A stretch of DNA of 64,000 bases, from NCBI GenBank assembly GCA_016879935.1, contig JAACJQ010000056.1, forward strand, positions 1-64,000, given 5' to 3'. The translations under genes and the position numbers were made by a program. Position 1 is the stretch's first letter. Every line of letters starts with the position of its first letter. This document shows, piece by piece, positions 43,778 through 58,922 of this stretch. Source of the DNA: Archangiaceae bacterium. GTDB taxonomy: Bacteria; Myxococcota; Myxococcia; Myxococcales; Myxococcaceae. The notes under the pieces are model-generated. The model had not been told where the DNA came from, searched no databases, and worked only from the letters and a program-made list of their open reading frames with translations.

Positions 43778-43978
43778 ATGTCGACGACCACGATGGCCAC
43801 TGACTCGAAGCGCACCTGGGACGGAGCCGATCGCCGCTCGGGAGCGACGCCCCAGGCTCCGCTCTTCGGTGAGCTGTTGGTCGAGAGCAGCTGGCGCCCG
43901 GCTGACGTGGTGCCCGCCGCGAGCGAGGGCTGGCTGCGCGCGTTCGGCTACGTGAAAGATCGCCGCACCACGAAGTGA
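43778..43978 (+). CDS. Short hypothetical protein
   Basis: A 66-residue reading frame with G/C-rich third positions and GGAG 9 bases before ATG 43778. It has no signal or known motif (ends GWLRAFGYVKDRRTTK). It is short and isolated between two minus-strand genes, so support is moderate. The 110 bp after it show nothing recognisable. Confidence 0.45.
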   Translation: MSTTTMATDSKRTWDGADRRSGATPQAPLFGELLVESSWRPADVVPAASEGWLRAFGYVKDRRTTK

Positions 43979-44088
43979 GCCCGTGAGACGAAGACGGAGC
44001 TCGCCTGATGAGCGGTGGCTCCATCGATTCTGCCGATCCACAGCCACGGCGAATGTGGCGAGCAAAGACGAGAGTCGAACTGGGGAAG

Positions 44089-44622
44089 TCAGTGAACGAG
44101 CTTGTCGAGCTCCGTGAACAGTTCGGCCACCTTCTCTTTCGACAGCCGGCCCTGCGCCTTCCACACGGCGCGGCCGGAGCCGTCGAGCACCAATACCGTC
44201 GATGACTTCGGAGGCAGGTTCCACGGCGTTGTCGCCAGGCTGCCCTTGAAGTCGAGGTACACCGGCAGGTGCACCTTCTTCTCGACGTCACGCACCGCCG
44301 CGAGCACGAAGTTCCTCGCTGGAAACCAGTCGTAGGCCGCCACGTTCGCGACCGCGACCACCGACACCTGATCCAACATGTGCTCGGTCTTGCCCTTCTC
44401 GTAGAGGGCGTCTTTGACGTGCTGATTGAGCGCCGTGGAGTCCCGGTCTTCGTAGAAAAGGACCGTCGGCTTCGCCCAGAGCGCACTCAGCCTCGTCGTG
44501 GAACCGCTTGATGTCTCAACGGTTGCATCCAAGGTGACACCTCCGTCAGCGGGGTTCGTATGGGCCTGGGTCGCCGCCAACGCGACGACGAAGGCCACTG
44601 TCCGGGTTGCGCGAAGCAACAT
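44089..44622 (-). CDS. YtfJ-family thioredoxin-like exported protein
   Basis: The 177-residue product has a signal (TVAFVVALAATQAHT) and a thioredoxin-like fold of YtfJ type: KPTVLFYEDRDS, VAVANVAAYDWFPARNF, PVYLDFKGSLATTPWNL and STVLVLDGSGRAVWKAQGRL. The CxxC of redox-active thioredoxins is absent, as usual in YtfJ. ATG 44622 is the start, with no good ribosome-binding site; GTG 44598 is an alternative. The start touches the predicted CarH operator of the divergent carotenoid operon, so it may share that control. Confidence 0.7.
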   Translation of the reverse strand: MLLRATRTVAFVVALAATQAHTNPADGGVTLDATVETSSGSTTRLSALWAKPTVLFYEDRDSTALNQHVKDALYEKGKTEHMLDQVSVVAVANVAAYDWFPARNFVLAAVRDVEKKVHLPVYLDFKGSLATTPWNLPPKSSTVLVLDGSGRAVWKAQGRLSKEKVAELFTELDKLVH

Positions 44623-44661
44623 TGGACATCATCTATACAGAGCTTGTACAAACCCTGCAAC
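44622..44661 (+). promoter_or_regulatory. Predicted CarH-type operator and promoter of the carotenoid operon
   Basis: Three hexamers T-N-x-ACA occur at 44623 (TGGACA), 44634 (TATACA) and 44645 (TGTACA), exactly 11 bp apart and in the same orientation. A weak fourth match (TGCAAC) is at 44656. The pattern fits the 11-bp direct repeats bound by CarH-type regulators, which bind DNA as tetramers in the dark. TTGGAC (44622-44627) and TGTACA (44645-44650) form a -35/-10 pair with a 17-bp spacer, so bound repressor would cover the promoter. crtE starts at 44709 after a leader with GGAGG at 44694. Confidence 0.7.
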
Positions 44662-44708
44662 GCGATCCCGGCTCCCGCATCCAACCGGTTCGTGGAGGAA
44701 CACATCGA

Positions 44709-45779
44709 ATGACGAGCATTCCGATCTCAGCCGTGCCCATGGGTGCCGAAGCGGCGCTGGCCTCGTTTCAGCTCGAGCTGGAGCACGCGCTCGCCGACCT
44801 GCTCGTGATGCCCGACGAAGCGGCGATGGATCCCCGGTGGTCGCGGGCGATGGTCGAGCTACGCGCGTACACGCTCCGGCCCGCGAAGCGCGTACGGCCG
44901 ACGTTGCTGCTGGCGGGCTGGGCGATGGCGTCGGGCGAGCTGACGCGCGGCGTGCCCGAAGGCGTGAAGCAGTTCGCTGCGGGCCTCGAGCTGCTCCACA
45001 CCTTCATGCTCATTCACGACGACGTGGCCGACCGCGCGGCGACGCGGCGTGGCGGGCCGTCGCTGCACCGGGCGCTCTCGAGCGGCAAGGCGGGCGAAGA
45101 TCTCGCGGTCGTCGTCGGCGACCACGTCTACTCGCGCGCCGTCGAGGTGATGCTGACCTCGGGCATGCCGCACGCCGCCGAGGCCACGCGGTACATGATG
45201 GCCATCTGCCGGCACACCGCCGTCGGCCAGTACCTCGACATCGATCTCGCCCGCACCCCGCTGCAGGACGTGACCATCTTCCAGACGCTCAAGGTCGCGA
45301 ACCTCAAGACGGCGCGGTACGGCTTCGTGGCTCCGCTCGTCGCGGGTGCGATGCTCGGCGGCGCCGACAAGGCGTTGCTCGAGCAGCTCGAGCGCGTGGG
45401 GCGTCAGGTCGGCCTCGCGTTTCAGCTGCGCGACGATCTCATCGGCCTGTTCGGTGACGACAGCGTCGCCGGCAAAGATGGCGGTGGCGACTTCGTCGAG
45501 GGCAAGCGCACCTTCCCCGTGGTCGCCGCGTGGACGCGTGCTGACTCGGCTGGCCGCGCGAAGCTCGAGCAGCTGTGGGCGTCCGACGTGAAGGACGAGA
45601 AGGCGCTCCAGTCGGCCCGCAGCGAGATCGACGCGTGGGGCGGCCGTGAAGCGACGCAGCGGGTGATCGAGCGCATGACGCGCAGCGCCCGCAAGACGCT
45701 CGAGCTGCTCCCCTCCGGAGCCGGAGCCCGCATGGTGCTCGACGGCCTCATTGCGCGAATGGTGCGGAGAGCCCGATGA
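44709..45779 (+). CDS. crtE: Geranylgeranyl diphosphate synthase
   Basis: It elongates farnesyl to geranylgeranyl diphosphate, the C20 precursor of phytoene. The 356-residue prenyltransferase has the first Asp-rich motif DDVADRAATRRGG and second motif QLRDDLIGLFGDD, with KPAKR-like RPAKRVRPTLL near the N-terminus. ATG 44709 is chosen since GGAGG lies 10 bases upstream; an earlier in-frame TTG would start inside the operator. It is the first gene of an eight-gene operon; its stop overlaps the crtI start (ATGA). Confidence 0.93.
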   Translation: MTSIPISAVPMGAEAALASFQLELEHALADLLVMPDEAAMDPRWSRAMVELRAYTLRPAKRVRPTLLLAGWAMASGELTRGVPEGVKQFAAGLELLHTFMLIHDDVADRAATRRGGPSLHRALSSGKAGEDLAVVVGDHVYSRAVEVMLTSGMPHAAEATRYMMAICRHTAVGQYLDIDLARTPLQDVTIFQTLKVANLKTARYGFVAPLVAGAMLGGADKALLEQLERVGRQVGLAFQLRDDLIGLFGDDSVAGKDGGGDFVEGKRTFPVVAAWTRADSAGRAKLEQLWASDVKDEKALQSARSEIDAWGGREATQRVIERMTRSARKTLELLPSGAGARMVLDGLIARMVRRAR

Positions 45780-47329
45780 GCCGCGCCATCGTCATCGGTG
45801 CAGGCGTCGGTGGCCTCACGGCGGCGATGAAGCTCGCCCACCAGGGCTGGCAGGTCGACTTGTACGAGAAGCAGTCGGTGCCGGGTGGCCGCTGTGGACG
45901 CATCGAGGCGAACGGGTTCACCTTCGACCTCGGCCCCACCATCATGCTCATGCCCTTCGTCTTCGAGCAGACGTTCGCGTCGGTGGGCAGACGCCTGTCG
46001 GACTACCTCACACTCGTTCGCTGCGACCCGAACTACAAGGTCACCTTCCGCGACGACTCGAGCATCACGCTCACCAGCGAGCTGACGAAGATGCGTGACG
46101 AGCTCGAGCGCCTCGAGCCCGGCAGCTTCGAGAACTACCTGCGCTTCCTCGCGAAGGGCCGCGACCGCCACGACACCTCGATGGAGCGCTTCGTCGGCAA
46201 ACACTTCGACTCACTCGCGCAGTTCCTCGCGCCGTCGAACCTGCCGCACGCGCTGCGCATCGGCGCTCACCAGAAGCTGTACTCGCAGGTCTCGAAGTCG
46301 TTCCGCGACGAGCGGCTGCGCCAGACGATGTCGTTCCAGACGATGTACCTGGGCGTGTCTCCGTACGAGGCGCCAGCGGTGTTCTCGCTGCTGCCGTACA
46401 CCGAACTCGCCGTCGGCATCTGGTACCCGCTCGGCGGCATGGGCGCGATCCCTCGTGCGCTCGAGAAGGTGTGCCACGAGCTGGGCGTCTCCACGCACTA
46501 CAACCGCTCGGTCACGCGCATCGTGATGGAGGGCCGTGTCGCGAAGGGCGTCGAGTTCGCCGACGGAACGGTGGAGCGTGCCGACGTCGTCATCTGCAAC
46601 GCCGACTTCCCCTGGGCGCAGAAGCACCTCGTGCCCGCCGAGGTCTCGGCGACGAAGGCGCTCGAGAAGAAGCGGTACACCTCGTCGGGCTACATGCTGT
46701 ACCTCGGCCTGAAGCGCCGCGAAGAGAAGCTGCTGCACCACAACGTCTTCTTCGGCCGCGACTTCGAGGGCAGCTTCGCGAGCATCTTCGAGAAGCTCGA
46801 GGTGCCCGATGACCCGTCGTTCTACGTGAATGCGCCGGCGCACACCGACCCGACGATGGCGCCAGAAGGCAAAGACGCGCTCTACGTGCTCGTGCCCGTG
46901 CCGCACCGCGCTCAGCACCTCGACTGGAAGGTCGAAGGCCCGAAGGTTCGCGCGAAGGTGTTCGCCCGCCTGAAGGAGCTCGGAATCGACCTCGAGCCCG
47001 ACATCGAGGTCGAGCGCGTCATCACGCCCGACGACTGGGAGCGTGAGCTCAACCTCGAGCGCGGCTCGAACTTCGGGCTCGCGCAGAACATGTTCCAGAT
47101 TGGTCCCTTCCGTCCGAAGGTCTGGGACGACCAGGTGCAGAACCTCTTCTATTGCGGCGCGTCGGTGCAGCCCGGCACGGGCGTTCCGACGGTGATGATC
47201 TCGGCCGACCTCTGCGTGAAGGCCATCGAGCAGCACGCGACGATGAAGCCCAACGTTCGGTCGATGGGCGCGACGGCCCAGTCCTCCATCGAAGGCCCGC
47301 GGCTCGCGGCTCGAGAGGCGCTCTCGTGA
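45776..47329 (+). CDS. crtI: Phytoene desaturase (CrtI type)
   Basis: This FAD-dependent enzyme introduces the conjugated double bonds in phytoene. The N-terminal Rossmann fold is VIGAGVGGLTAAMKLAHQGW with YEKQSVPGGRCG and DLGPTIMLMPFV. The C-terminal FYCGASVQPGTGVPTVMISA is the CrtI signature region. Length (517 aa) is normal. In Myxococcus two CrtI-type desaturases share the job; here the second desaturase is CrtD-like (48336). The number of double bonds it makes cannot be predicted. Confidence 0.93.
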   Translation: MSRAIVIGAGVGGLTAAMKLAHQGWQVDLYEKQSVPGGRCGRIEANGFTFDLGPTIMLMPFVFEQTFASVGRRLSDYLTLVRCDPNYKVTFRDDSSITLTSELTKMRDELERLEPGSFENYLRFLAKGRDRHDTSMERFVGKHFDSLAQFLAPSNLPHALRIGAHQKLYSQVSKSFRDERLRQTMSFQTMYLGVSPYEAPAVFSLLPYTELAVGIWYPLGGMGAIPRALEKVCHELGVSTHYNRSVTRIVMEGRVAKGVEFADGTVERADVVICNADFPWAQKHLVPAEVSATKALEKKRYTSSGYMLYLGLKRREEKLLHHNVFFGRDFEGSFASIFEKLEVPDDPSFYVNAPAHTDPTMAPEGKDALYVLVPVPHRAQHLDWKVEGPKVRAKVFARLKELGIDLEPDIEVERVITPDDWERELNLERGSNFGLAQNMFQIGPFRPKVWDDQVQNLFYCGASVQPGTGVPTVMISADLCVKAIEQHATMKPNVRSMGATAQSSIEGPRLAAREALS

Positions 47330-48339
47330 CGAACGCGCTCGCGCTCCAGGCGTCGTCGGGTTCGTCGCTCGTCGCCGAGGGGTACGAGCGCGCGAAGGCG
47401 CTCACGAAGCACCACGCGAAGTCGTTCTTCTTCTCGAGCGTGGCGATGTTCGGTGCGCGTCGGCGTGGTGCGTTCGCGCTCTACGCGTTCTGCCGCCGCC
47501 TCGATGACCTCGTCGATGGTGACAACGCCGGTGATGGAACGGTGTCGGCTCCGGTCGCGCTGCCCTCACAGTTGTCGGAGCGCCTGGCCCTCGCCCGCGC
47601 GGCCGTCTCGTCGCTGTACGGAACCGAGTCGGGCGCGGTGTGGCGCGACCTGCCGTGGCACGAGTCGGAGGTCGCTGCGTTTCGCGACACGGTGCTTCGC
47701 TACGGCATTCCCGAGCGCCCGTTTCAGGAACTCATCTCGGGCATGGAGATGGACCTCACGAAGTCTCGCTACGCGAACTTCGACGAGCTGCACCTCTACT
47801 GCTACCGGGTCGCGGGCGTCGTCGGCGAGATGATGACGCCGGTGCTGGGCCACGCGAACGACCGTTGCCTGCCGTACGCGGCCGACCTCGGCGTCGCGAT
47901 GCAGCTGACGAACATTCTCCGTGACGTGAAGGAAGACCTCGGCCGCGGCCGCATCTACCTCGCCTCGAACGAGCTCTCGGCCTTCGGCATCAGTGAGCAC
48001 GATCTGCTCCGCTGGTCGCGCGGTGACGAGAAGCCCTCGCTCGCGTGGACGCACTTCATGCAGTTCCAGATTTCGCGCGCGCGGGCGTACCAGCAGCGCT
48101 CGTCGTTCGGCGTGCCCGACCTCCGCGGCTTCGGCAGCCAGCGTGTGGTTCGCCTCATGGGCACGGTCTACGGCGGCATTCTCGAGATCATCGAGCAGCA
48201 GCAGTACGACGTGTTCTCGAAGCGCGCGCACGTGCCGCTGAGTGGAAAGCTCGCCCGGGCGTTTTCGGTGCTGCTCACTCCGAACCCGACCGCGATCGGT
48301 CCGGCGACGCCCATTCCCCAGCTCGAGGCGGCCAGGTGA
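47326..48339 (+). CDS. crtB: Phytoene synthase
   Basis: It condenses two geranylgeranyl diphosphates to phytoene. The 337-residue protein has the first motif FCRRLDDLVDGDN, the YCYRVAGVVGEMM segment and the second Asp motif QLTNILRDVKEDLGRGR. GTG 47326 overlaps the crtI stop (GTGA); the next gene overlaps in the same way. Typical squalene/phytoene synthase family throughout. Confidence 0.95.
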   Translation: MTNALALQASSGSSLVAEGYERAKALTKHHAKSFFFSSVAMFGARRRGAFALYAFCRRLDDLVDGDNAGDGTVSAPVALPSQLSERLALARAAVSSLYGTESGAVWRDLPWHESEVAAFRDTVLRYGIPERPFQELISGMEMDLTKSRYANFDELHLYCYRVAGVVGEMMTPVLGHANDRCLPYAADLGVAMQLTNILRDVKEDLGRGRIYLASNELSAFGISEHDLLRWSRGDEKPSLAWTHFMQFQISRARAYQQRSSFGVPDLRGFGSQRVVRLMGTVYGGILEIIEQQQYDVFSKRAHVPLSGKLARAFSVLLTPNPTAIGPATPIPQLEAAR

Positions 48340-49751
48340 AGCGCGTCGCCGTCATCGGAGGTGGCATCGGAGGCCTGACCGCCGCGGGCATGCTCGCGCG
48401 CAAGGGCCATCAGGTGACGCTCTTCGAGGCGACGGACGCGCTTGGTGGAAAAGCAGGCACCCTGCGCGTCGACGGGCTCGTGTTCGACACCGGGCCGACC
48501 GTGATGACGATGCCCGACACCGTGCGGGCGACGTTCGCCGACCTCGGCGCGGAAGACCTGATGCCGCGCCTCGAGCGCCTCCCGCTCCAGACGCACTACC
48601 GCTACGCCGACGGGCGCGAGTTTCTCTGCTGGGAAGACCTCGACCGCGCCGCCGAGAGCGCCGCCGCGCTCCACCCCGCCGATGGCGACGGCCTGCGCTC
48701 GTTCTTCGCCGACGCGCAGAAGGTGTACCGCGCTGCGGGCCAGCCGTACCTCGACGCTCCGTACGAGACGATGATGGGCTTCATGGCGCGCGCGGCCCGC
48801 AACGGTCTCGGCACCCTCGTCACCGGGCTCAAGCTGTCGACGCTCGACGCCCTCGGCCGGAAGCACTTCGAGAGTCAGCACCTGCAGCAGTTCGTCAATC
48901 GTTTTGCGACGTACGCCGGAGCGTCTCCCTACGAGGCGAACGCGGCCTTCGCGATGATCGCCCACATCGAGCGCGCCTTCGGCGTGCACCACGCCATCGG
49001 AGGGCTCGGCGGCATCGTCGAAGGGCTCGTTGCGGCGGTGAAGCGCTGTGGCGTCGAGGTGGTGCTCGGTCAGAAGGCGACGCACGAGAAGCGCGGCAGC
49101 TCCTTCGTCGTGGCCGAGCGCGAGTTCGACGCCGTCGTGGTGAACGCCGACCCGCTCGCGCTGCAACACCGCGCCGGCGACCCGCTCACCATGTCTGGCT
49201 ACGTCGCGATGTTCGACGTGCCGAAGCGGCTCTCGCTGCCGCACCACACCATTCTCTTCTCGAGCGACTACCGGAAGGAGTTCGCCGAGCTCTCCGCCGG
49301 CCGCCTCGCCGACGAACTCACCGTGCACGTCTGCCACCCGGCCGCGACCGACCCGACGATGGCGCCCGAAGGCCGCAGCGGGCTCTACGTGATGGTGAAC
49401 GTGCCGCCAATTCAGCCGGCCGACGAGTGGAAGACGAACGCGCGCGTGCTCGAGGCGCAGGTGCGTTCACGCCTGGGCGCGATGATTCCAGAGCTGCTCG
49501 GCGTCCCGCTTCGGCTCGTCGCGGAGCGCACGCCGGTCGACCTCGAGAAGAAGGGCGCGCCGCGCGGCTCCATCTACGGCTACCTGCCGCACGGAAAGTT
49601 CGGGCCCTTCAAGCGGCCTGCGATGCGTGGCGAACCCGGCGTCTTCTTCGCAGGTGGAGGAACGCACCCCGGTGGCGGTGTTCCCCTCGTGATGCTCTCG
49701 GGCCGTTTCGCTGCGGGCATGACCGACGCTCACCTCGGAGGCCGCCCGTGA
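48336..49751 (+). CDS. crtD: Carotenoid 3,4-desaturase (CrtD-like)
   Basis: A second FAD desaturase: VIGGGIGGLTAAGMLARKGH, FEATDALGGKAG, and DTGPTVMTMPD near the start. The C-terminal VFFAGGGTHPGGGVPLVMLS is closer to the GGSxHPGxGVPM motif of CrtD (1-hydroxycarotenoid 3,4-desaturase) than to CrtI. Immediate linkage to crtC supports CrtD, because CrtC makes its 1-hydroxy substrate. An alternative is a CrtIa-type desaturase that completes phytoene or isomer conversion. Start is GTG 48336 (overlap with crtB stop); 471 aa. Confidence 0.78.
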   Translation: MKRVAVIGGGIGGLTAAGMLARKGHQVTLFEATDALGGKAGTLRVDGLVFDTGPTVMTMPDTVRATFADLGAEDLMPRLERLPLQTHYRYADGREFLCWEDLDRAAESAAALHPADGDGLRSFFADAQKVYRAAGQPYLDAPYETMMGFMARAARNGLGTLVTGLKLSTLDALGRKHFESQHLQQFVNRFATYAGASPYEANAAFAMIAHIERAFGVHHAIGGLGGIVEGLVAAVKRCGVEVVLGQKATHEKRGSSFVVAEREFDAVVVNADPLALQHRAGDPLTMSGYVAMFDVPKRLSLPHHTILFSSDYRKEFAELSAGRLADELTVHVCHPAATDPTMAPEGRSGLYVMVNVPPIQPADEWKTNARVLEAQVRSRLGAMIPELLGVPLRLVAERTPVDLEKKGAPRGSIYGYLPHGKFGPFKRPAMRGEPGVFFAGGGTHPGGGVPLVMLSGRFAAGMTDAHLGGRP

Positions 49752-50650
49752 ACCACGTCGAGCTGCCGACGAAGAGCGGCGCCTACCGCTGGTACTACGC
49801 CGACGTGACGGCGGGCGACGTCAGCGCCGTCTTCATCTTCATGGTCGGCAGCATCTTCTCGGCCCGCTACTCCGCCTCGCTCAAGAAGGGCGGCCTGCCG
49901 CGGGAACACGCCGCGGTGAACTTTGCGCTCTACGAGAAGGGCGTGCGCTCGTTGTGGGTGCTCACCGAGTACCAGGCCGTGTCCATCTCCGACGACGCGC
50001 GCACGCTGCGAATCGGCGCTTCGTCACTCGCCTATGATGACGACGGCTTCACCATGGTGGTGAAGGACAAGACGACGCCGTGGGGCGCGCCGACCGAAGC
50101 CACGCTGCGCTTCTCGCCGAAGACGGCGCTCGGCCCCGACCTCGAGCTCGTCGAAGGGCTCTCGCACCACTGGCGGCCCATCTGCGTTCGCGGCGAAGCG
50201 CGCGTCACCGTGCCGACGCAAGACGTCGACGTCACCGGCCGCGGCTACCACGACGGCAACCATGGCGACGCGCCGCTCGGCAGCGATCTCCAGGGCTGGG
50301 AGTGGACCCGAACGCACCACCCGGTTCACTCGACCATCAGCTACCGCCCGTGGGGAGGCGCGCCCCTCATCGACGTGCTCGCCACCGAGCGCGACGTGCA
50401 GGTGACTCGCCGCGCCCCCGAGCCGATTCCCACCGTGCGCAGCGGCTGGGGCCTTCGAGTTCCCGCGTCGCTCGGCATCGGGGGAGCGCCCGCGATGCTC
50501 GAGTCGTCTCCGTTCTACGCACGCCTCGAAGCGCAGGCGGCCGACACGCAGGCCATGGGTGAGGTCGCCGACTTCGCGCGCTTCCACAGCCCCGCCGTCA
50601 GGTGGATGGCGAACTTCCGCACGCGCTACGCCAAAGAGGGTGCCCGATGA
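49748..50650 (+). CDS. crtC: Carotenoid 1,2-hydratase
   Basis: CrtC hydrates the terminal double bond of acyclic carotenoids, giving the 1-hydroxy group needed for glycosylation. The 300-residue protein has the AttH/CrtC lipocalin-like two-barrel features: GAYRWYYADVTAGD, HHWRPICVRGEARVTV and GRGYHDGNHGDAPLG, the latter with the conserved GYHD-NxG catalytic region. GTG 49748 overlaps the crtD stop. Position after crtD and before the glycosyltransferase fits the order of modification steps. Confidence 0.9.
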   Translation: MNHVELPTKSGAYRWYYADVTAGDVSAVFIFMVGSIFSARYSASLKKGGLPREHAAVNFALYEKGVRSLWVLTEYQAVSISDDARTLRIGASSLAYDDDGFTMVVKDKTTPWGAPTEATLRFSPKTALGPDLELVEGLSHHWRPICVRGEARVTVPTQDVDVTGRGYHDGNHGDAPLGSDLQGWEWTRTHHPVHSTISYRPWGGAPLIDVLATERDVQVTRRAPEPIPTVRSGWGLRVPASLGIGGAPAMLESSPFYARLEAQAADTQAMGEVADFARFHSPAVRWMANFRTRYAKEGAR

Positions 50651-51792
50651 ATCTCTTCGTCACGACCTGGGCGGTGTTGGCCGCGGGCTTCACCGGCGTC
50701 GCGCTGTACCGGCTGATTCGTCAGCGCGGCGTCGAAGCGGCGCGCGCCCGCCGCCGTCCGCACGTGCTGCTCATTCGCCCCGTCGACGCGCCCACGCCGC
50801 TCGAGCTCGAGAACCTCGGCACGCCCATCGACTACCCGGGGCAGCTCACGCACGTGGTGGTCTCTCCGTTCCGCCCGCGGCTCTCGTCGGCGAACGTGCG
50901 CTGGCTCGCGTCAGACCCACTCAGCCGCAACCGCAAGGTCGGGCACATCGCCTACGCGCTCTCGACGCTGCAGGCCGAGCGCGCCGTCTCGCCCGACGAG
51001 CCGGCCATCGACGAGCGGGTCGACTCGCTCGAGTCCTCTCCCGAGCAGGTGGTGGTGTGTGTCGACGCCGACGTTCGGGTCGACGCGGCCCTCATCGGGT
51101 CGCTCGTCGACGAGCTGCGAAACGGCGCCGCGCTCGCGTCTGCCGCCCCTCGGCCGTCGGTCTCGCACTCTCTGGGAGGCCGCGCCGTTCGAGGCCTGCT
51201 CGTTCAGTCGCACCACGCCTTCGAGGTCATCGACGTGATGAGCGCCGGCGCGCGCGCCATCTGCGGCAAGGCCATCGCGCTGTCGCCCGTCGCTGCCGCC
51301 GAGTTGCTCCGGCTCTCTGACTGCATCGGCGAAGACCTCGAGCTGTCGCACGTGCTGCACGAGCGGGGGCTGCCGGTCACGTTGGCGAAGGCCACGGCGA
51401 ACGTGCCACAACCTGCGCACGTGCCCGTCGCTGCCGTCGTCGAGCGTTTCACCCGGTGGATGCAGGTGCTGCGCGCGCATCGCCCCGGCCTGTTTCCGAC
51501 GGTGCCCCTCTTCTTCGCGCCGACGCCACTGTTGATGGCGCTGGCCTCGGTCGTCGCGACTCCCAGCGCCGCCGTCGCGCTCTCCCTGCTCGTCGCCTCG
51601 CGAATCGCCCTCGCCAACCGGCAGGACAACCGCGGTGGGCTCCGGTTCGAGTGGCTGCTCGCCGAAGGCCTGCTGTGGGTCTGTTGGCTCAATGCGCTCC
51701 GCCAGGGTGGCACCGTCGAGTGGCGTGGGCGAAGGTTCACCCTGCGCTCCGGTGGAAAGATGGAGGCGCTCGCGCCCGAGGAGGCCCGATGA
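50647..51792 (+). CDS. GT21-like glycosyltransferase, likely carotenoid glucosyltransferase
   Basis: A 381-residue membrane-anchored family 2/21 glycosyltransferase. An N-terminal helix (TTWAVLAAGFTGVALYRLI) precedes a GT-A domain with VVVCVDADVRV (DxD), EDLELSHVL (acid) and RFTRWMQVLRAHRP, the R-x-x-R-W motif of ceramide-glucosyltransferase-like enzymes. Two hydrophobic segments follow (PTPLLMALASVVATPSAAVA). ATG 50647 overlaps the crtC stop by 4 nt. Its place next to crtC suggests it glycosylates the 1-hydroxy carotenoid; ceramide glycosylation is the alternative. Confidence 0.75.
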   Translation: MNLFVTTWAVLAAGFTGVALYRLIRQRGVEAARARRRPHVLLIRPVDAPTPLELENLGTPIDYPGQLTHVVVSPFRPRLSSANVRWLASDPLSRNRKVGHIAYALSTLQAERAVSPDEPAIDERVDSLESSPEQVVVCVDADVRVDAALIGSLVDELRNGAALASAAPRPSVSHSLGGRAVRGLLVQSHHAFEVIDVMSAGARAICGKAIALSPVAAAELLRLSDCIGEDLELSHVLHERGLPVTLAKATANVPQPAHVPVAAVVERFTRWMQVLRAHRPGLFPTVPLFFAPTPLLMALASVVATPSAAVALSLLVASRIALANRQDNRGGLRFEWLLAEGLLWVCWLNALRQGGTVEWRGRRFTLRSGGKMEALAPEEAR

Positions 51793-52505
51793 TTCGCGAC
51801 CAGAAAGGTGGCCTCTTCGCCTCCGTCATCGATTGGTACATCGCGCGAAAGGTGCGCACCTCGTTTCGTGGCGTCTGGGTGCGGGGAACGCTCCCCTCGT
51901 CGTCGAACGGCCTCATCGCGTACCTGAACCACTCGAGCTTCTGGGACGGCTTCATCGCCCATCAGCTCGGCAAACTCGCGGGGTGGGACGCGTACGCGCT
52001 GATGGAAGAGGAGAACCTGGCGAAGTACCGCTTTCACACGCGCATCGGCGCCTTCAGCGTGCGGCGCGGAGATGCCCGCTCGGCCGTCGAGACGTTGCGC
52101 TATGCGAAGTCGGTGCTCGCTCGCCCCAACGCCGCCGTCGTCATCTTCCCCCAGGGAGAGATTCGTGCTGGGCAGGGCCCGCTCGGCTCGTTCTCGCGCG
52201 GCCTCGAGGTGCTCGCGCGCTCGTCGAAGAAGCTGAGCGTGCCCATCGCGATTCGCTACGCCTTCCTCGAGCATGAGCACCCCGACGTGCTCATCGACGT
52301 CGGAACACCGCACGCGCCTGGCGACCTGGCCGCCTACGAAGCCGGGTTGAACGACGTCTACGCGAAGGTGATGCAGGCCCGCTCGACCGAAGGTTTCACG
52401 TTGCGCATCAAGGGCCGCTCCGGCGTCCAGGACCGTTGGGACTCGGTGCGCCGCCTCCCCACCGAAACGCAGGAGAGCCCGGCTCAGCCCGCGGCGCAGC
52501 CGTGA
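51789..52505 (+). CDS. PlsC-family acyltransferase, likely acylating the carotenoid glycoside
   Basis: The 238-residue protein has the 1-acylglycerol-3-phosphate acyltransferase signature: NHSSFWD (HX4D) near residue 47 and FPQGEIRAGQG downstream. Its position after the glycosyltransferase suggests it esterifies the sugar with a fatty acid, as in myxobacterial carotenoid glycoside esters. A general phospholipid role cannot be excluded. ATG 51789 overlaps the preceding stop; the last base of its stop is the first base of the carH start. Confidence 0.8.
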   Translation: MIRDQKGGLFASVIDWYIARKVRTSFRGVWVRGTLPSSSNGLIAYLNHSSFWDGFIAHQLGKLAGWDAYALMEEENLAKYRFHTRIGAFSVRRGDARSAVETLRYAKSVLARPNAAVVIFPQGEIRAGQGPLGSFSRGLEVLARSSKKLSVPIAIRYAFLEHEHPDVLIDVGTPHAPGDLAAYEAGLNDVYAKVMQARSTEGFTLRIKGRSGVQDRWDSVRRLPTETQESPAQPAAQP

Positions 52506-53404
52506 TGGAACGCACGTATCGAATCAACGTCGCCGCCGAGATGAGCGGCGTCTCGGAAGGCCTCATTCGCGCCTGGGAGCGCCGCTACGGCGTGCTCAAG
52601 CCCAAACGCACCCCGTCGGGCTATCGCGCGTACACCGAGAGCGACATCTCGGTGCTCAAGCGCCTCAAGCAGCTCACCGAAGAGGGCGTCAGCATCGCCG
52701 AGGCCGTCAAGCTGCTGCCGAGCATCAAGCGCGACGTGAAGGAGCAGCTCGACAAGGCCGAGCGCGCGACGCCGAAGGCGCCCAAGGCCGGCCAGACTGA
52801 CAAGTGGCGCCACGAGATTCTGGTCGCGGCCGAGCGGCTCGACCAACAGACGCTCGAGCTGGTGCTCGACGAGGCGATGGCCTCGATGCCGCCGGTCGCG
52901 TTCTGGGAAGAGGTGTTGGCGCCGCTACAACGAGAGGTCGGCGAGCGCTGGCACGCGGGAACACTCACCGTCGCCGAGGAGCACCTCGTCACGCAGGCGG
53001 CTCGTCAGCGCGTCATCGCGTTGCTGCACCAGGCGCCGCGCCGGTCGAAACGTCACGTCGTCGCCGCCTGCTTCCCCAACGACGAGCACGAGCTGGGCCT
53101 CATGGGCGCGGCGCTCCGGTTTCGTCACGCCGGGTGGCGCGTCACCTTTCTCGGCGCGCGCACGCCGGCGGAGCACCTCGCGCGCGTCGTGCGGGTCGTG
53201 CAACCACAGGTCGTCGCCCTGAGCGCGGTGAATGACGAGGGCATCGCGCGCTTCGAGTCGACGCTCACCGAGATGATGGCTGAACGCGGCGAGGCAGAGT
53301 TCATCGTCGGTGGGCGCGCCGCCGAGCTGCACGCAGACGTCGTGACGCGGGTGGGCGCGCGAATCGTGACGACCTCTGCCGAGTGGGCCGAGCTGCTGGG
53401 GTGA
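52505..53404 (+). CDS. carH: CarH-type B12-dependent light-sensing MerR repressor
   Basis: The 299-residue protein has an N-terminal MerR DNA-binding domain (residues 5-75; WERRYGVLKPKRTPSGYRAY), a four-helix bundle and a C-terminal cobalamin domain. All B12-site residues of CarH are visible: the W-x9-EH motif (Trp149, Glu159, His160) and DEHELG with lower ligand His195. The Trp-to-His spacing of 46 equals that of Thermus CarH. Adenosylcobalamin-bound CarH tetramers repress in the dark; light breaks the Co-C bond and releases DNA. Being last in the operon it would autoregulate through the operator at 44622. Whether it is a strictly B12-dependent CarH or a B12-facultative CarA-like form is untested. 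Confidence 0.92.
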   Translation: MERTYRINVAAEMSGVSEGLIRAWERRYGVLKPKRTPSGYRAYTESDISVLKRLKQLTEEGVSIAEAVKLLPSIKRDVKEQLDKAERATPKAPKAGQTDKWRHEILVAAERLDQQTLELVLDEAMASMPPVAFWEEVLAPLQREVGERWHAGTLTVAEEHLVTQAARQRVIALLHQAPRRSKRHVVAACFPNDEHELGLMGAALRFRHAGWRVTFLGARTPAEHLARVVRVVQPQVVALSAVNDEGIARFESTLTEMMAERGEAEFIVGGRAAELHADVVTRVGARIVTTSAEWAELLG

Positions 53405-53898: not shown

Positions 53899-55668
53899 GT
53901 GGACCTGCTCCGCCACCTGGACCCGCGCTTGCGCCCCGCGCTCGAGAGCGAGCTGCGCCACCGAACGTCGGCGCCCATCGACGGAGTGCCCCGCGGCGTG
54001 ACGGTGGTGCTCGCTGGCCATCGCGGCGCGGGCAAGACGACGGTGCTCCCTCACGTGGCGGCTGTGCTCGGGCGACCGGGAATCGACCTCGACGCCGAGC
54101 TCGAGCGGCGCGAAGGCCGGTCGCTTCGCGAGTGGTTTCAGCACGACGTCGCCTCGTTTCGCGCTGCCGAGCGCGCCGTGTTCTCGTCTTTGCCCGCGGG
54201 AAGCCTCGTCGCCGTCGGTGGCGGCTTCCTCGCCAACCACGGTGACCTGCTCGGCGCGTGTCTGACGGTGCTCGTGCCCGTGTCGTGGGAGACGTTCGCC
54301 GAGCGGTTGGGCGCCGACACCTCGCGCCCGCGGCTGATGCCCGACGTCTCGCTGCGAGAAGAGCTCGAGACCATCTGGGCCGAGCGTGAAGAGAAACACC
54401 GACGCGTGAAGACGATGTCGTTCGTCGACTTCGCGTTGGCGTTGACGAAGCCAGCCAGGCCACGGCGCGTGGTGACGTTGCCGCCCGATGCGCACCCCGC
54501 GGAGTTCGCGTGGAGGGCGCGGCACGCCGGCGCCGATTTGCTCGAGGTGAGAACCGATGTGACGGCGACGGAGATCGAGCTGGCTCCCGTGGTGCGTGCA
54601 CTGCCAGTGCTCGTCGCGGAGCGCGGCCTCGTCGCGCCGCTCGAGTGGGCTCGGTCGGCGGCGCTGCTCGATTCCGACTCCGGTTCGCTGCGCTCGTTTC
54701 ATTCCGAGCGGCCGATGACGACGGCCGAGGTGCTGGCGCACTGGCGCGCCGTTCCCGACGGCGCGCAGGTGAAGCACGTCGAGCCGCTCGGCTCGTTGCG
54801 AGAAGCGCCGCGCCTGTTCGAGACGCAGCGGGCGCTGCAGGAGAAGTTCGGCCGTCATCGCGTGACGGTGCTCGCGACGGGCCCACTCGCGTTGCCTTTT
54901 CGCGCGTTGCTCGCCGAGCAGAACGCGCTCGACTACCTCGCGCTCGAGCCGACGTGGAGCGCCGCTGCGGGCCAACGCCTGCTCCAGGACGCCGTTCGTG
55001 CGCATCGCCGCGCGACGAAGCATGGAATGACGGAGCGGCTCGGCATTCTCGGCTCGCCGCTCGCGCACTCGAGGAGCCCGCGGCTGCACGTGCAACCGTT
55101 CGACCGCATCGAGCTGCCGCCGGACGCCGACGTTGCCGAGGTGCTGCGCGCGCTGCGGCCCCACTATCGCGGCTTCGCGGTGACGAACCCGTTCAAGAAG
55201 GCCGCTGCATCGGCGGCGAACGCCACGCGTGACGCGGTGAACACGCTCGTGCGCGACGAGGCGGGGTGGGGTTCGTTCAACACCGACCGTGAAGGCGCTG
55301 CGGCGACGTTGAGCGTGCTCATCGAGCGAGCGAACTCGAAGCAGGTGACGGTGCTGGGAGACGGTGGCGTCACCGGCGCGCTTCGCGAAGCAGCCGAGCA
55401 GCTCGGCGTCGTGCTCGTGGTGAAGCGTCGCGCCGACGCGAACGGCTCCATCGGCGGCCCCGTGGTGTGGACCTGGCCTGCCACGATTGCTCCACCACCT
55501 GGGCTTCGTTTCGAGAACGCCCTCGTCGCCGTCATCGCCTACGGCCGGCCCGCACGTGCCATCGCCGCGACCGTGCGTGAACGAGGTGGAACTGCGCTGC
55601 GTCTCGGGCCACGGTGGTTCATCGCGCAGGCACGGCGGCAGCGAAGCCTCTGGGAGTCGGCCACATGA
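53899..55668 (+). CDS. Trifunctional shikimate kinase-dehydroquinate dehydratase-shikimate dehydrogenase
   Basis: One 589-residue protein fuses three shikimate pathway enzymes. Residues 1-190 are shikimate kinase (Walker A GHRGAGKTT, GIDLDAELERREG, VAVGGGFL). Residues about 200-365 are type I dehydroquinate dehydratase: LLEVRTD (Glu216, Arg218), SFHSER (His268) and Lys292 in QVKHVE match catalytic residues. Residues about 378-589 are shikimate dehydrogenase: GSPLAHSRSP, Lys433 in NPFKK, Asp463 in NTDREG and the NADP loop VLGDGGVTGA. The dehydrogenase domain is short in its substrate half. GTG 53899 has AGGAAG upstream. Order of domains differs from that of the pathway steps (DHQD, SDH, SK). 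Confidence 0.88.
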   Translation: MDLLRHLDPRLRPALESELRHRTSAPIDGVPRGVTVVLAGHRGAGKTTVLPHVAAVLGRPGIDLDAELERREGRSLREWFQHDVASFRAAERAVFSSLPAGSLVAVGGGFLANHGDLLGACLTVLVPVSWETFAERLGADTSRPRLMPDVSLREELETIWAEREEKHRRVKTMSFVDFALALTKPARPRRVVTLPPDAHPAEFAWRARHAGADLLEVRTDVTATEIELAPVVRALPVLVAERGLVAPLEWARSAALLDSDSGSLRSFHSERPMTTAEVLAHWRAVPDGAQVKHVEPLGSLREAPRLFETQRALQEKFGRHRVTVLATGPLALPFRALLAEQNALDYLALEPTWSAAAGQRLLQDAVRAHRRATKHGMTERLGILGSPLAHSRSPRLHVQPFDRIELPPDADVAEVLRALRPHYRGFAVTNPFKKAAASAANATRDAVNTLVRDEAGWGSFNTDREGAAATLSVLIERANSKQVTVLGDGGVTGALREAAEQLGVVLVVKRRADANGSIGGPVVWTWPATIAPPPGLRFENALVAVIAYGRPARAIAATVRERGGTALRLGPRWFIAQARRQRSLWESAT

Positions 55669-56702
55669 ACAGCTTCGGAGAACTCTTTCGCGTCACCACG
55701 TTCGGCGAGAGCCACGGGCCGGCCATGGGCGCGGTCATCGACGGGTGCCCTGCCGGCGTTCCGCTCACGAAGGCGTTCGTTCAGCGCGCGCTCGATCGGC
55801 GGCGGCCGGGGCAGAGCGCAGTGACGACCGCGCGGCAGGAGGCCGATCAGGTGGAGCTGCTCTCGGGCGTCTACGAAGACAAGACGCTCGGCACGCCGAT
55901 CGCCGCCATCGTTCGCAACACCGATGCACGCAGCCAGGACTACGCGAAGCTCGCGAAGGAAGACCGCCCCGGTCACGCCGATCGGGTCTGGCGCGAGCGC
56001 TTTCATCATCGCGACCCTCGCGGCGGAGGTCGCACGAGCGGGCGTGAGACGTTGTGCCGGGTCATCGGTGGCGCCGTCGCCGATGCATTGCTCGCGAACG
56101 AGACGCCGAAGCTGAACGTCGTCGCGTGGGTCTCGCAGGTCGGGCCGTTCGTCGCGCCGTTGCCCGCGGCTGGGCTCACGCGTGCGCAGGTCGACGCCCA
56201 CCCGACCCGTTGTCCCGATGTGGCGCTCGCGGCCGAAATCGAAGCGCGCATTCTCGAAGCGAAGGCCGCCGGAGACTCGCTCGGTGGTGCCATCACGGTT
56301 CGCATCGAGGGCGCGCCCCTGGGTCTGGGTGAGCCGGTGTTCGGCAAGCTGAAGTCGCGGCTCGCTGATGCGTTCGCAGGGGTCGGCGCGGTGACTGGTG
56401 TCGTGTGGGGCCCGGCCGATCTCGAGCATCGGCTGCGATTGCCGGGCACGCAGTTTCACGCGACGAACGCCGATGGAACGCCGAGCGACGTGTACGGCGG
56501 CATTCAGGGCGGGCTCGCGAATGGAGAGCCTGTGCTCGCGCGAGTGCTGTTCAAACCGCCCGCGACCCTCACCGACCACGCGAAGGCCGGCCGTCACGAC
56601 CCGTGCATTCTGCCGCGCGCCGTTCCCGTCATCGAGGCGATGGCCTCGATGGTGTTCGCCGATCTCCTCTTGTCCTTCCTCGCGAGGCCGCACCGCGCAT
56701 GA
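55665..56702 (+). CDS. aroC: Chorismate synthase
   Basis: It converts EPSP to chorismate with reduced FMN. Signatures: TTFGESHGPAMGAVIDGCPA, RRRPGQSAVTTARQEADQVE, HRDPRGGGRTSGRET and FKPPATL near the end. Residue count is 345, normal. ATG 55665 overlaps the fusion gene stop (ATGA). The usual DYRGGGR reads HHRDPRGGGR, with a small local change near the FMN site that does not remove the conserved Arg residues. Confidence 0.95.
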   Translation: MNSFGELFRVTTFGESHGPAMGAVIDGCPAGVPLTKAFVQRALDRRRPGQSAVTTARQEADQVELLSGVYEDKTLGTPIAAIVRNTDARSQDYAKLAKEDRPGHADRVWRERFHHRDPRGGGRTSGRETLCRVIGGAVADALLANETPKLNVVAWVSQVGPFVAPLPAAGLTRAQVDAHPTRCPDVALAAEIEARILEAKAAGDSLGGAITVRIEGAPLGLGEPVFGKLKSRLADAFAGVGAVTGVVWGPADLEHRLRLPGTQFHATNADGTPSDVYGGIQGGLANGEPVLARVLFKPPATLTDHAKAGRHDPCILPRAVPVIEAMASMVFADLLLSFLARPHRA

Positions 56703-57727
56703 CGACTCTTCCTCCTGGCGCCCTCACTCCGTCGGTCGATCGCACGGGCCGCTTCGTCGACCTCGTGAAGTCGTTGCCCGACGAGACGGTGGTCTTCGCC
56801 GACGCGCGCGTGCTCCGGCTGCACCGTGACGTCGCGAAGTCGCTCTCGAAACGCACGGTCATTCCGCTCACTGCAGGAGAAGGCCTCAAGTCGCTCGCGA
56901 CCATCGAGCGGGTGGCGAAGCGGCTCTCGGGCGTGTCCCGCTCGGCCACCTTCGTCGCGCTCGGTGGTGGAACGGTCGGAGACGTCGTCACCGTCATCGC
57001 GCACCTGCACAAACGAGGCGTGAAGCTCGTTCACGCGCCCACCACGTTGCTCGCCGCGGTCGACAGCTCCATCGGTGGCAAAGGCGCAGTGAACGTCGGC
57101 GACGTGAAGAACGCGCTCGGTGTGTTCCACGGGCCCGTCGAGACGTGGCTGTGCCCGAAGTTCTTCGACACGTTGTCGGAGGCGCAGCGCAGGGAAGGGC
57201 GGCTCGAGGCGTGGAAGATGGTCGTCACGCTCGACGCAGCGACGGCCCGACGGTGGATGAAGAAGACGCCGAACGACCTCGCGCTGCTGCGAGAAGCGCG
57301 CGACCTGAAGGAGGCTGTCGTGCGCACCGACCCGTACGAGACGAAGGGCGTGCGCGTGGTGCTGAACTTCGGCCACACGTTTGGTCACGTGCTGGAGAGC
57401 GTGAGCGGCTTTTCGCTGCGTCACGGAGAGGCGGTCGGGCTCGGCATGCTGTGCGCGCTCGATGTTGGTGTCGACCTCGGCCTCACGCCGCGTGGAGTCG
57501 CCGAGGCGATCGAAGCCGCGCTCCCGAATGCGAAGAACGCGCGCGCGGTGCTGGCGAAGCTCGCGAAGGTGCCGGTGTCGAAGGTGGCGAAGGTGCTCGC
57601 TGCCGACAAGAAGGGCAGCGCGAGCCAGCTCCGCATGGTGCTGCTCGAAGACCTGGGCCGGTGGCGCACGGTCGGCGTCGACGCGAAGACGTGGCAGTCG
57701 CGGTGGACGGGGTCGTGGCGTGCCTGA
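56699..57727 (+). CDS. aroB: 3-dehydroquinate synthase
   Basis: It cyclises DAHP to 3-dehydroquinate using NAD and a divalent metal. Visible are FVALGGGTVGDVVTVIAHLH, HAPTTLLAAVDSSIGGKGAV and the metal site LNFGHTFGHVLES plus LRHGEAVGLGM. The 342-residue length is typical. ATG 56699 overlaps the aroC stop (ATGA), and the stop overlaps aroA by 8 nt. Confidence 0.95.
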   Translation: MTTLPPGALTPSVDRTGRFVDLVKSLPDETVVFADARVLRLHRDVAKSLSKRTVIPLTAGEGLKSLATIERVAKRLSGVSRSATFVALGGGTVGDVVTVIAHLHKRGVKLVHAPTTLLAAVDSSIGGKGAVNVGDVKNALGVFHGPVETWLCPKFFDTLSEAQRREGRLEAWKMVVTLDAATARRWMKKTPNDLALLREARDLKEAVVRTDPYETKGVRVVLNFGHTFGHVLESVSGFSLRHGEAVGLGMLCALDVGVDLGLTPRGVAEAIEAALPNAKNARAVLAKLAKVPVSKVAKVLAADKKGSASQLRMVLLEDLGRWRTVGVDAKTWQSRWTGSWRA

Positions 57728-58922
57728 GGTGCTGACACCTCCGCTCTCGAAGTCAGACGCGCACCGCGTGCTCGTGCTGCGTGAGCTCTGCGAGGGCACT
57801 CACGAAGCCGCGCTCGAAGGGGCGACCGACGTCCCCGAAGACGTGCTGGTGCTCTCGCGTGGGTTGAAGACGCTGCGTGGCTCGAGGGGTGAGCTCGACT
57901 GCCACGATGCGGGCGCGCCGTTTCGGTTCCTGCTGACGCAGGCTGCGCTTCGTCCGAACTCGGTGTTCCACTTCACGGGCACGGCGCGACTCGCCGAACG
58001 TCCCCAGCGGCCGCTCGTCGACGCGTTGGCGAAGTCGTTGGGCGTTCGTTTCACCGAAGGTTCTCCCTGGCCCCTCACCGTGACGACGGGCCCGACTCCG
58101 ACCGTTCAGCGCTTCGAGGTCTCTGGAGTCGAGTCGAGCCAGTTCGCGTCGAGCCTCGTGCTCGGCGCCGCACGGCTCGTTCATCACGGCAACCCCGACG
58201 TCGTCGTCGACGTCACGGGAGAATCAACGAGCGCCGGCTACCTCGCGCTCACCCTCGATTGGGTCCGTCGCTTCGGCTTTCGCGTCGAGGTGAACGGCTC
58301 GCGAATCACCATCGGCGGGCGTGGAACGTCGGTCGCGCCCAGCCTGCCCGGTGACTGGTCGTCGCTCACGTACCTGTTGCCACTCGCGTGGAGATCGAAC
58401 GCGCGTGTCGCGTCGGTCGACCTCGCCTCGACACATCCCGACCGCACCTTCGCCACGCACCTCGAGGCAGCCGGTCTTTCACTGGCGACCATCGAAGGGG
58501 GCACCGAAGTGCGCGGAGCGCTCACCCGTGGCGTCTTGGTCGACGCCTCCATCTGCCCAGACGCGGTGCCCGGCCTCGTCGCGCTCGCGCTCGTGGCGCC
58601 CGCCCCGTCGACCTTCGTGCGCTGCAGTGTCTTGCGGCTCAAAGAGAGCGACCGCCTCGCTGCGCTCGTCGACCTCGTTCACCTCACGGGCGGAGCGACC
58701 TCGCTCGACGGCGACACGCTCACCGTCTCACCGCCACGAACGCCACGCGGCGGAACCTTCGACGGAAGGAGCGACCACCGCCTCGTCATAGCCGCTGCCG
58801 TCTCCGGCTCGCTGCTCGGCGTGACGATTTCCGTGCGCGGCACCAGCGCCGTCGCCAAGAGCTTCCCCGGGTTCTGGAGAGAAGCAGCGAAGGCCCACGT
58901 GACCCGAAGGGAGGCCGAGTGA
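57720..58922 (+). CDS. aroA: EPSP synthase
   Basis: It adds the enolpyruvyl group of PEP to shikimate 3-phosphate. PPLSKSDAHRVLVL is the N-terminal substrate loop; GAPFRFLL, TGTARLAERPQRPLVDAL and LKESDRLAALVDLV are conserved EPSP synthase motifs. GTG 57720 is used since it lies in frame just before the conserved N-terminus. 400 residues, slightly shorter than the common form. The glyphosate-site motif here reads GTARLAERP rather than the common GNAGTAxRP; the inhibitor response is not predictable from sequence alone. It overlaps the next gene (GTGA). Confidence 0.92.
   Translation: MPEVLTPPLSKSDAHRVLVLRELCEGTHEAALEGATDVPEDVLVLSRGLKTLRGSRGELDCHDAGAPFRFLLTQAALRPNSVFHFTGTARLAERPQRPLVDALAKSLGVRFTEGSPWPLTVTTGPTPTVQRFEVSGVESSQFASSLVLGAARLVHHGNPDVVVDVTGESTSAGYLALTLDWVRRFGFRVEVNGSRITIGGRGTSVAPSLPGDWSSLTYLLPLAWRSNARVASVDLASTHPDRTFATHLEAAGLSLATIEGGTEVRGALTRGVLVDASICPDAVPGLVALALVAPAPSTFVRCSVLRLKESDRLAALVDLVHLTGGATSLDGDTLTVSPPRTPRGGTFDGRSDHRLVIAAAVSGSLLGVTISVRGTSAVAKSFPGFWREAAKAHVTRREAE

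Follow-up and report, generated by a model that had tools for sequence, protein, structure and literature searches.

An array of 11-bp direct repeats between crtE and a divergent YtfJ-like gene as a putative CarH operator in an uncultured myxobacterium

The window analyzed here is a 64,000-nucleotide stretch of the genome of an Archangiaceae bacterium (GenBank assembly GCA_016879935.1, contig JAACJQ010000056.1, positions 1 to 64,000). It carries a plus-strand carotenoid operon of eight tightly coupled genes, the first of which is crtE and the last carH. A Shine-Dalgarno sequence, GGAGGA (44694 to 44699, +; read from the sequence), precedes crtE, which encodes a polyprenyl/geranylgeranyl diphosphate synthase (44709 to 45779). 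Downstream lie genes for a crtI-family phytoene desaturase (45776 to 47329; TIGR02734, 503.9 bits), a crtB-like phytoene synthase (47326 to 48339; NF045686, 4e-63), a second desaturase of the crtI/crtD family (48336 to 49751; TIGR02734, 265.3 bits), a crtC-like carotenoid 1,2-hydratase (49748 to 50650; NF045922, 2.6e-25), a glycosyltransferase (50647 to 51792; PF13506; M. xanthus orf6 counterpart), and an acyltransferase (51789 to 52505; PF01553; M. xanthus orf9 counterpart). The ATG of carH (52505 to 53404), whose product combines MerR DNA-binding and cobalamin-binding domains, overlaps the preceding stop codon. We take the gene order to be that of M. xanthus carB minus crtYc/crtYd and carA. 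Shikimate-pathway genes lie 3′ of carH (53899 to 58922, +; named from translations as a shikimate kinase-like fusion protein, chorismate synthase, dehydroquinate synthase, and an EPSP synthase-like protein), and the first two of these also adjoin the crt operon of the relative G047. Relatives with names are MAGs of uncultured Myxococcaceae. Divergent from crtE is a gene for a YtfJ-like protein of 177 amino acids with a likely signal peptide (44089 to 44622, −; PF09695, 27.6 bits against a cut-off of 24), which the preliminary description of this DNA did not mention.

An array of repeats occupies positions 44619 to 44662 (+), 86 bp ahead of the crtE ATG (44709). It is made up of three full repeats, DR1 (acatTGGACAt, 44619 to 44629), DR2 (catcTATACAg, 44630 to 44640), and DR3 (agctTGTACAa, 44641 to 44651), followed by a degenerate fourth, dr4 (acccTGCAACg, 44652 to 44662; TGCAAC at 44656). 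The TnnACA words of the full repeats (44623 to 44628, 44634 to 44639, and 44645 to 44650) follow one another at 11-bp steps, so the positions and spacing of TGGACA, TATACA, and TGTACA given in the preliminary description were borne out; dr4, which it did not mention, keeps the same 11-bp register. These are the only three TnnACA words on the plus strand between 44600 and 44709. A CarH operator has three or more tandem nnnnTnnACAn repeats of 11 bp, as this array does. A search for the exact triple gave a single match in the window, none in any of 100 dinucleotide shuffles, and again a single match in the complete 9,527,372-base genome, where the reversed control pattern had 0 matches and no non-crt site matched. 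When the local 110 bp, which are AT-richer, were resampled 20,000 times under a first-order Markov model, none scored 12/12 and 10 scored 11/12. Other genomes do have exact TnnACA triples away from their crt genes, but several of these are TTGAACA arrays that recur next to unrelated genes, and the triples are therefore no evidence for a wider CarH regulon. Recurrent TnAACA/TTGAACA repeats, three in a row and 11 bp apart, occurred at the non-crt loci L141-L152 (G060, G063, G067, G075, G078, G058, G059, G061, G070, G072, G053, and G055), some of them beside a response-regulator gene.

The preliminary description also held that the operon ends with a gene bearing the B12-site residues of CarH, and all of the diagnostic motifs are present in the translation of 52505 to 53404. 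PF13411, PF02607, and PF02310 all matched above cut-off (MerR-type DNA-binding and cobalamin-binding domains), the recognition helix reads RAWERRY (pattern RxWERRY), and the B12-binding motif DEHELG-x41-SAV-x26-GG fits D/ExHx2G/P-x41-SxT/V-x22-27-GG with the published spacings. The closest solved full-length relative is Thermus CarH (3whp, E = 7e-29; 5c8d, E = 9e-29). The CarH equivalog model NF052513 was the best NCBIfam match but scored 145.3 bits, below its 400-bit cut-off; such a score is as expected for a divergent branch, and the cut-off reflects curation rather than any trait that defines CarH biologically. In the alignment with 5c8d, the Arg-Asp salt-bridge pair of Thermus is Glu-Arg here and two interface glycines are Pro and Gly, at positions that we take to be the dimer-interface contacts of the Thermus structure. 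Both the Glu-Arg pair and the Gly/Pro variants match the pattern published for myxobacterial CarH (PMC9304148). As a CarH, the protein would be predicted to undergo AdoCbl-dependent, light-reversed oligomerization. An intact Wx9EH motif distinguishes CarH from CarA (PMC9304148); it is present here (WHAGTLTVAEEH, 52949 to 52984), and by this criterion the translated product is a CarH rather than a CarA. A genome-wide search for a second full-length MerR-B12 protein found none, and hence no CarA-like match. A CarF-type plasmalogen desaturase is encoded elsewhere in the genome (G000:C430:72136-72669, −; PF10520, 211.9 bits), and CarF without CarA has likewise been reported for Cystobacter.

Of the preliminary description, the promoter pair was the less secure part. 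The proposed TTGGAC-17-TGTACA pair is present, but its match to the sigma-70 consensus is weak (6/12 positions), and a sigma-70 scan of 43900 to 45000 at a strict threshold listed no promoter. By consensus scoring, the best rightward candidate is TGGACA-18-TACAAA (44623 to 44652, +; 9/12), which fits better than the original pair both here and in the congener G095; its −35 (44623 to 44628) is the TnnACA word of DR1, and its −10 (44647 to 44652) overlaps DR3. The array upstream of crtE contains a 9/12 candidate for the promoter of a carotenoid gene. Candidates in sister genera are clearer, namely, TTGACA-16-TATACA (G011), TTGACC-17-TATACA (G012), and TTGACT-17-TATACA (G010). Since the −10 TATACA is itself a repeat in these three genomes, the operator there covers both promoter elements; the same is very probably true in the window, where the promoter is a consensus-scored candidate. 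A candidate leftward promoter (44632 to 44660, −) also lies inside the array: TTGCAG (44660 to 44655) is separated by 17 bp from TATAGA (44637 to 44632), and the same TTGCAG-17-TATAGA occupies the same position in G090, G094, G012, and G089. Its −35 is the conserved ACCCTGCAAC of dr4, and transcription from it would be expected to start no more than a few bases from the ATG of the YtfJ-like gene.

The preliminary description had named absence of the repeats from close relatives with the same operon as grounds for giving up its reading; we found the array, in register, in 5/5 operon-bearing congeners. The carH-terminated operon is common to G092 and G095, whose operons were fully read out, and in the other three a CarH match lies on the same contig and strand about 7 to 9 kb downstream of crtE. 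The sixth congener, G093, has neither a close crtE nor CarH. Across the family, the best three-repeat score reached 9/12 or more in 73 of 76 crtE upstream regions and lay between 10 and 12 in nearly all of these, while shuffled sequences reached at least 9 in 3% of cases and at least 10 in about 0.5%. The three low scorers were a second crtE copy in G081, whose other copy has four exact repeats, and the crtE regions of G047 and G088, both of which lack any CarH. With G081 set aside, every crtE promoter in a genome with a CarH or CarA-like protein scored at least 9/12 (72/72). Besides the CarH-like gene at the crt operon, some sister genomes have a second one at another locus (L115 and L116 in G011, L117 in G010, L042 in G008).

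The array was lost together with CarH. In G047 (about 100% complete), carH is absent between the acyltransferase and aro genes, the flanking genes are in place, and the array has decayed to 7/12, the level of shuffles, upstream of an otherwise intact crt operon and beside an intact divergent gene (G047:C61:20000-33500, L108). G088 has neither CarH nor the array. In G089, the array is kept and CarH was not found, on a contig that breaks off within the acyltransferase gene, immediately ahead of where carH would be expected. G047 thus amounts to a natural deletion in which regulator and operator have gone together.

These losses bear on whether the array might instead be no more than AT-rich promoter DNA that serves two divergent genes, its 11-bp period a by-product of stacked −35 and −10 elements. 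The consensus TTGACA itself fits TnnACA, promoter-like elements lie on both strands of the region, and conservation among congeners extends to nonmotif columns: those between T and ACA are also well conserved (0.81 versus 0.90) and shifted masks score similarly, and therefore column conservation alone cannot separate an operator from a promoter. Yet G047 retains both genes, and hence both promoters, and has lost the array along with carH, whereas G095 lacks the divergent gene and keeps all three full repeats (12/12), having lost only dr4, whose ACCCTGCAAC is kept in 4/4 congeners with that gene. The exact triple is, moreover, unique in 9.5 Mb, and we regard an origin in promoter sequence as improbable. 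It is less probable still that the array serves another regulator, such as a B12-independent CarA-type protein acting on inverted repeats with the antirepressor CarS. M. xanthus CarA and CarH do use the same operator (PMC8156234), and CarF, a factor of the CarA pathway, is encoded in this genome; however, the sole full-length MerR-B12 protein of the genome has the intact Wx9EH that CarA lacks. Chance periodicity, to which two-mismatch triples in window shuffles (mean, 0.55) might point, is already refuted by the conserved position of the array across genus and family and finds no exact triple in any shuffle or local resampling, leaving it a negligible prospect.

We consider it highly probable that the array is the operator, that is, the putative binding site, of the CarH that the last gene of this operon encodes. 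The nnnnTnnACAn pattern of known CarH operators (PMC9304148) is matched by the repeats, the CarH motifs are present, and the array is kept in congeners, all of which supports the CarH reading first proposed for this DNA. In characterized systems, AdoCbl-bound CarH in the dark sits on tandem repeats along one face of the DNA and blocks RNA polymerase, and light cuts the Co-C bond and releases CarH (PMC9304148, PMC8156234). The CarH encoded here may act as a tetramer or, as in Cystobacter, as paired dimers. By analogy with this work, binding, occlusion, and a light response would be predicted here: in the dark, CarH on the array would shut off the crt genes; green, blue, or UV light would break the Co-C bond, and the CarH oligomer would fall apart; the crt genes and carH would then be transcribed. 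Since the operon to be repressed ends in carH itself, the circuit would be autoregulated.

Operators of this design, with tandem 11-bp nnnnTnnACAn repeats over a crt promoter, are already on record for the CarH proteins of myxobacteria, Thermus, and Bacillus, and therefore the kind of system is known and is new in this organism. The nearest likeness is to the Pcrt operators of Cystobacterineae, including Myxococcus and Cystobacter (PMC9304148), which belong to the same family and share the crtE-first operon ending in carH, the 11-bp nnnnTnnACAn repeats with flanking pseudorepeats, and, in Cystobacter, the absence of carA. The Pcrt arrays contain five repeats, the fourth of which includes a TTGACA −35, whereas the present array consists of three full repeats plus one pseudorepeat, lacks TTGACA, and runs up to the start codon of a divergent gene, and the operon lacks crtYc/crtYd and carA. 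The CarH operator of Thermus thermophilus (5C8D/5C8E; Jost et al. 2015 via PMC9304148) has, as here, three tandem 11-bp direct repeats, which overlap the promoter (a candidate promoter here); Thermus belongs to a different phylum, its interface pair is Arg-Asp rather than Glu-Arg, and the present protein has Pro in place of one of the two interface glycines of Thermus, a variant also reported for myxobacterial CarH (PMC9304148). PcrtSc2 of Sorangium cellulosum, in the crtE-crtD intergenic region, likewise has three tandem direct repeats between divergent genes with overlapping promoters (candidate promoters here), but both of its divergent genes make carotenoids, while the left gene here is YtfJ-like (PMC9304148). 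The CarA/CarH operator at PB of M. xanthus belongs to a homologous promoter and operon and, unlike the present array, comprises about 55 bp of inverted repeats recognized by both proteins (PMC8156234).

The position of the array suggests a second target. The YtfJ-like ATG (44622 to 44620) touches DR1, as it does in every genome of this genus that has the gene. Across the family, the divergent gene is present in 71/76 crtE regions, and in most genomes about 0 to 35 bp separate its candidate ATG from the leftmost repeat. This leaves so little space that a nearby promoter for the YtfJ-like gene must overlap the operator, and since the array abuts the ATG and contains a candidate leftward promoter, bidirectional control is likely. 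That the array also controls the YtfJ-like gene is thus likely, as a good prediction rather than a finding; the same CarH occupancy would silence this gene too. Divergent control has been described in Sorangium in a text that does not bring up such control for Cystobacterineae (PMC9304148), and a literature search found neither light regulation of a YtfJ-like gene nor bidirectional control for this suborder. We give roughly even chances to a broader proposal: that throughout Myxococcaceae the CarH/CarA operator switches transcription in both directions in response to light, acting on the crt operon and the conserved YtfJ-like gene, and that in this genus the YtfJ-like gene has a leaderless transcript, which begins at its start codon or close to it, and both of its promoter elements lie within the array. 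A light-related function for the YtfJ-like gene is a fair guess.

What is new, then, is the organism, the compactness of its operator, a natural loss of carH and operator together, and the likely control in two directions. A known light-control design is extended to an uncultured myxobacterial genus, in a form with compact three-plus-one repeats and no CarA. The conserved and uncharacterized YtfJ-like gene is a likely second target of light control and, if so, would add to the photo-oxidative response a member not listed before.
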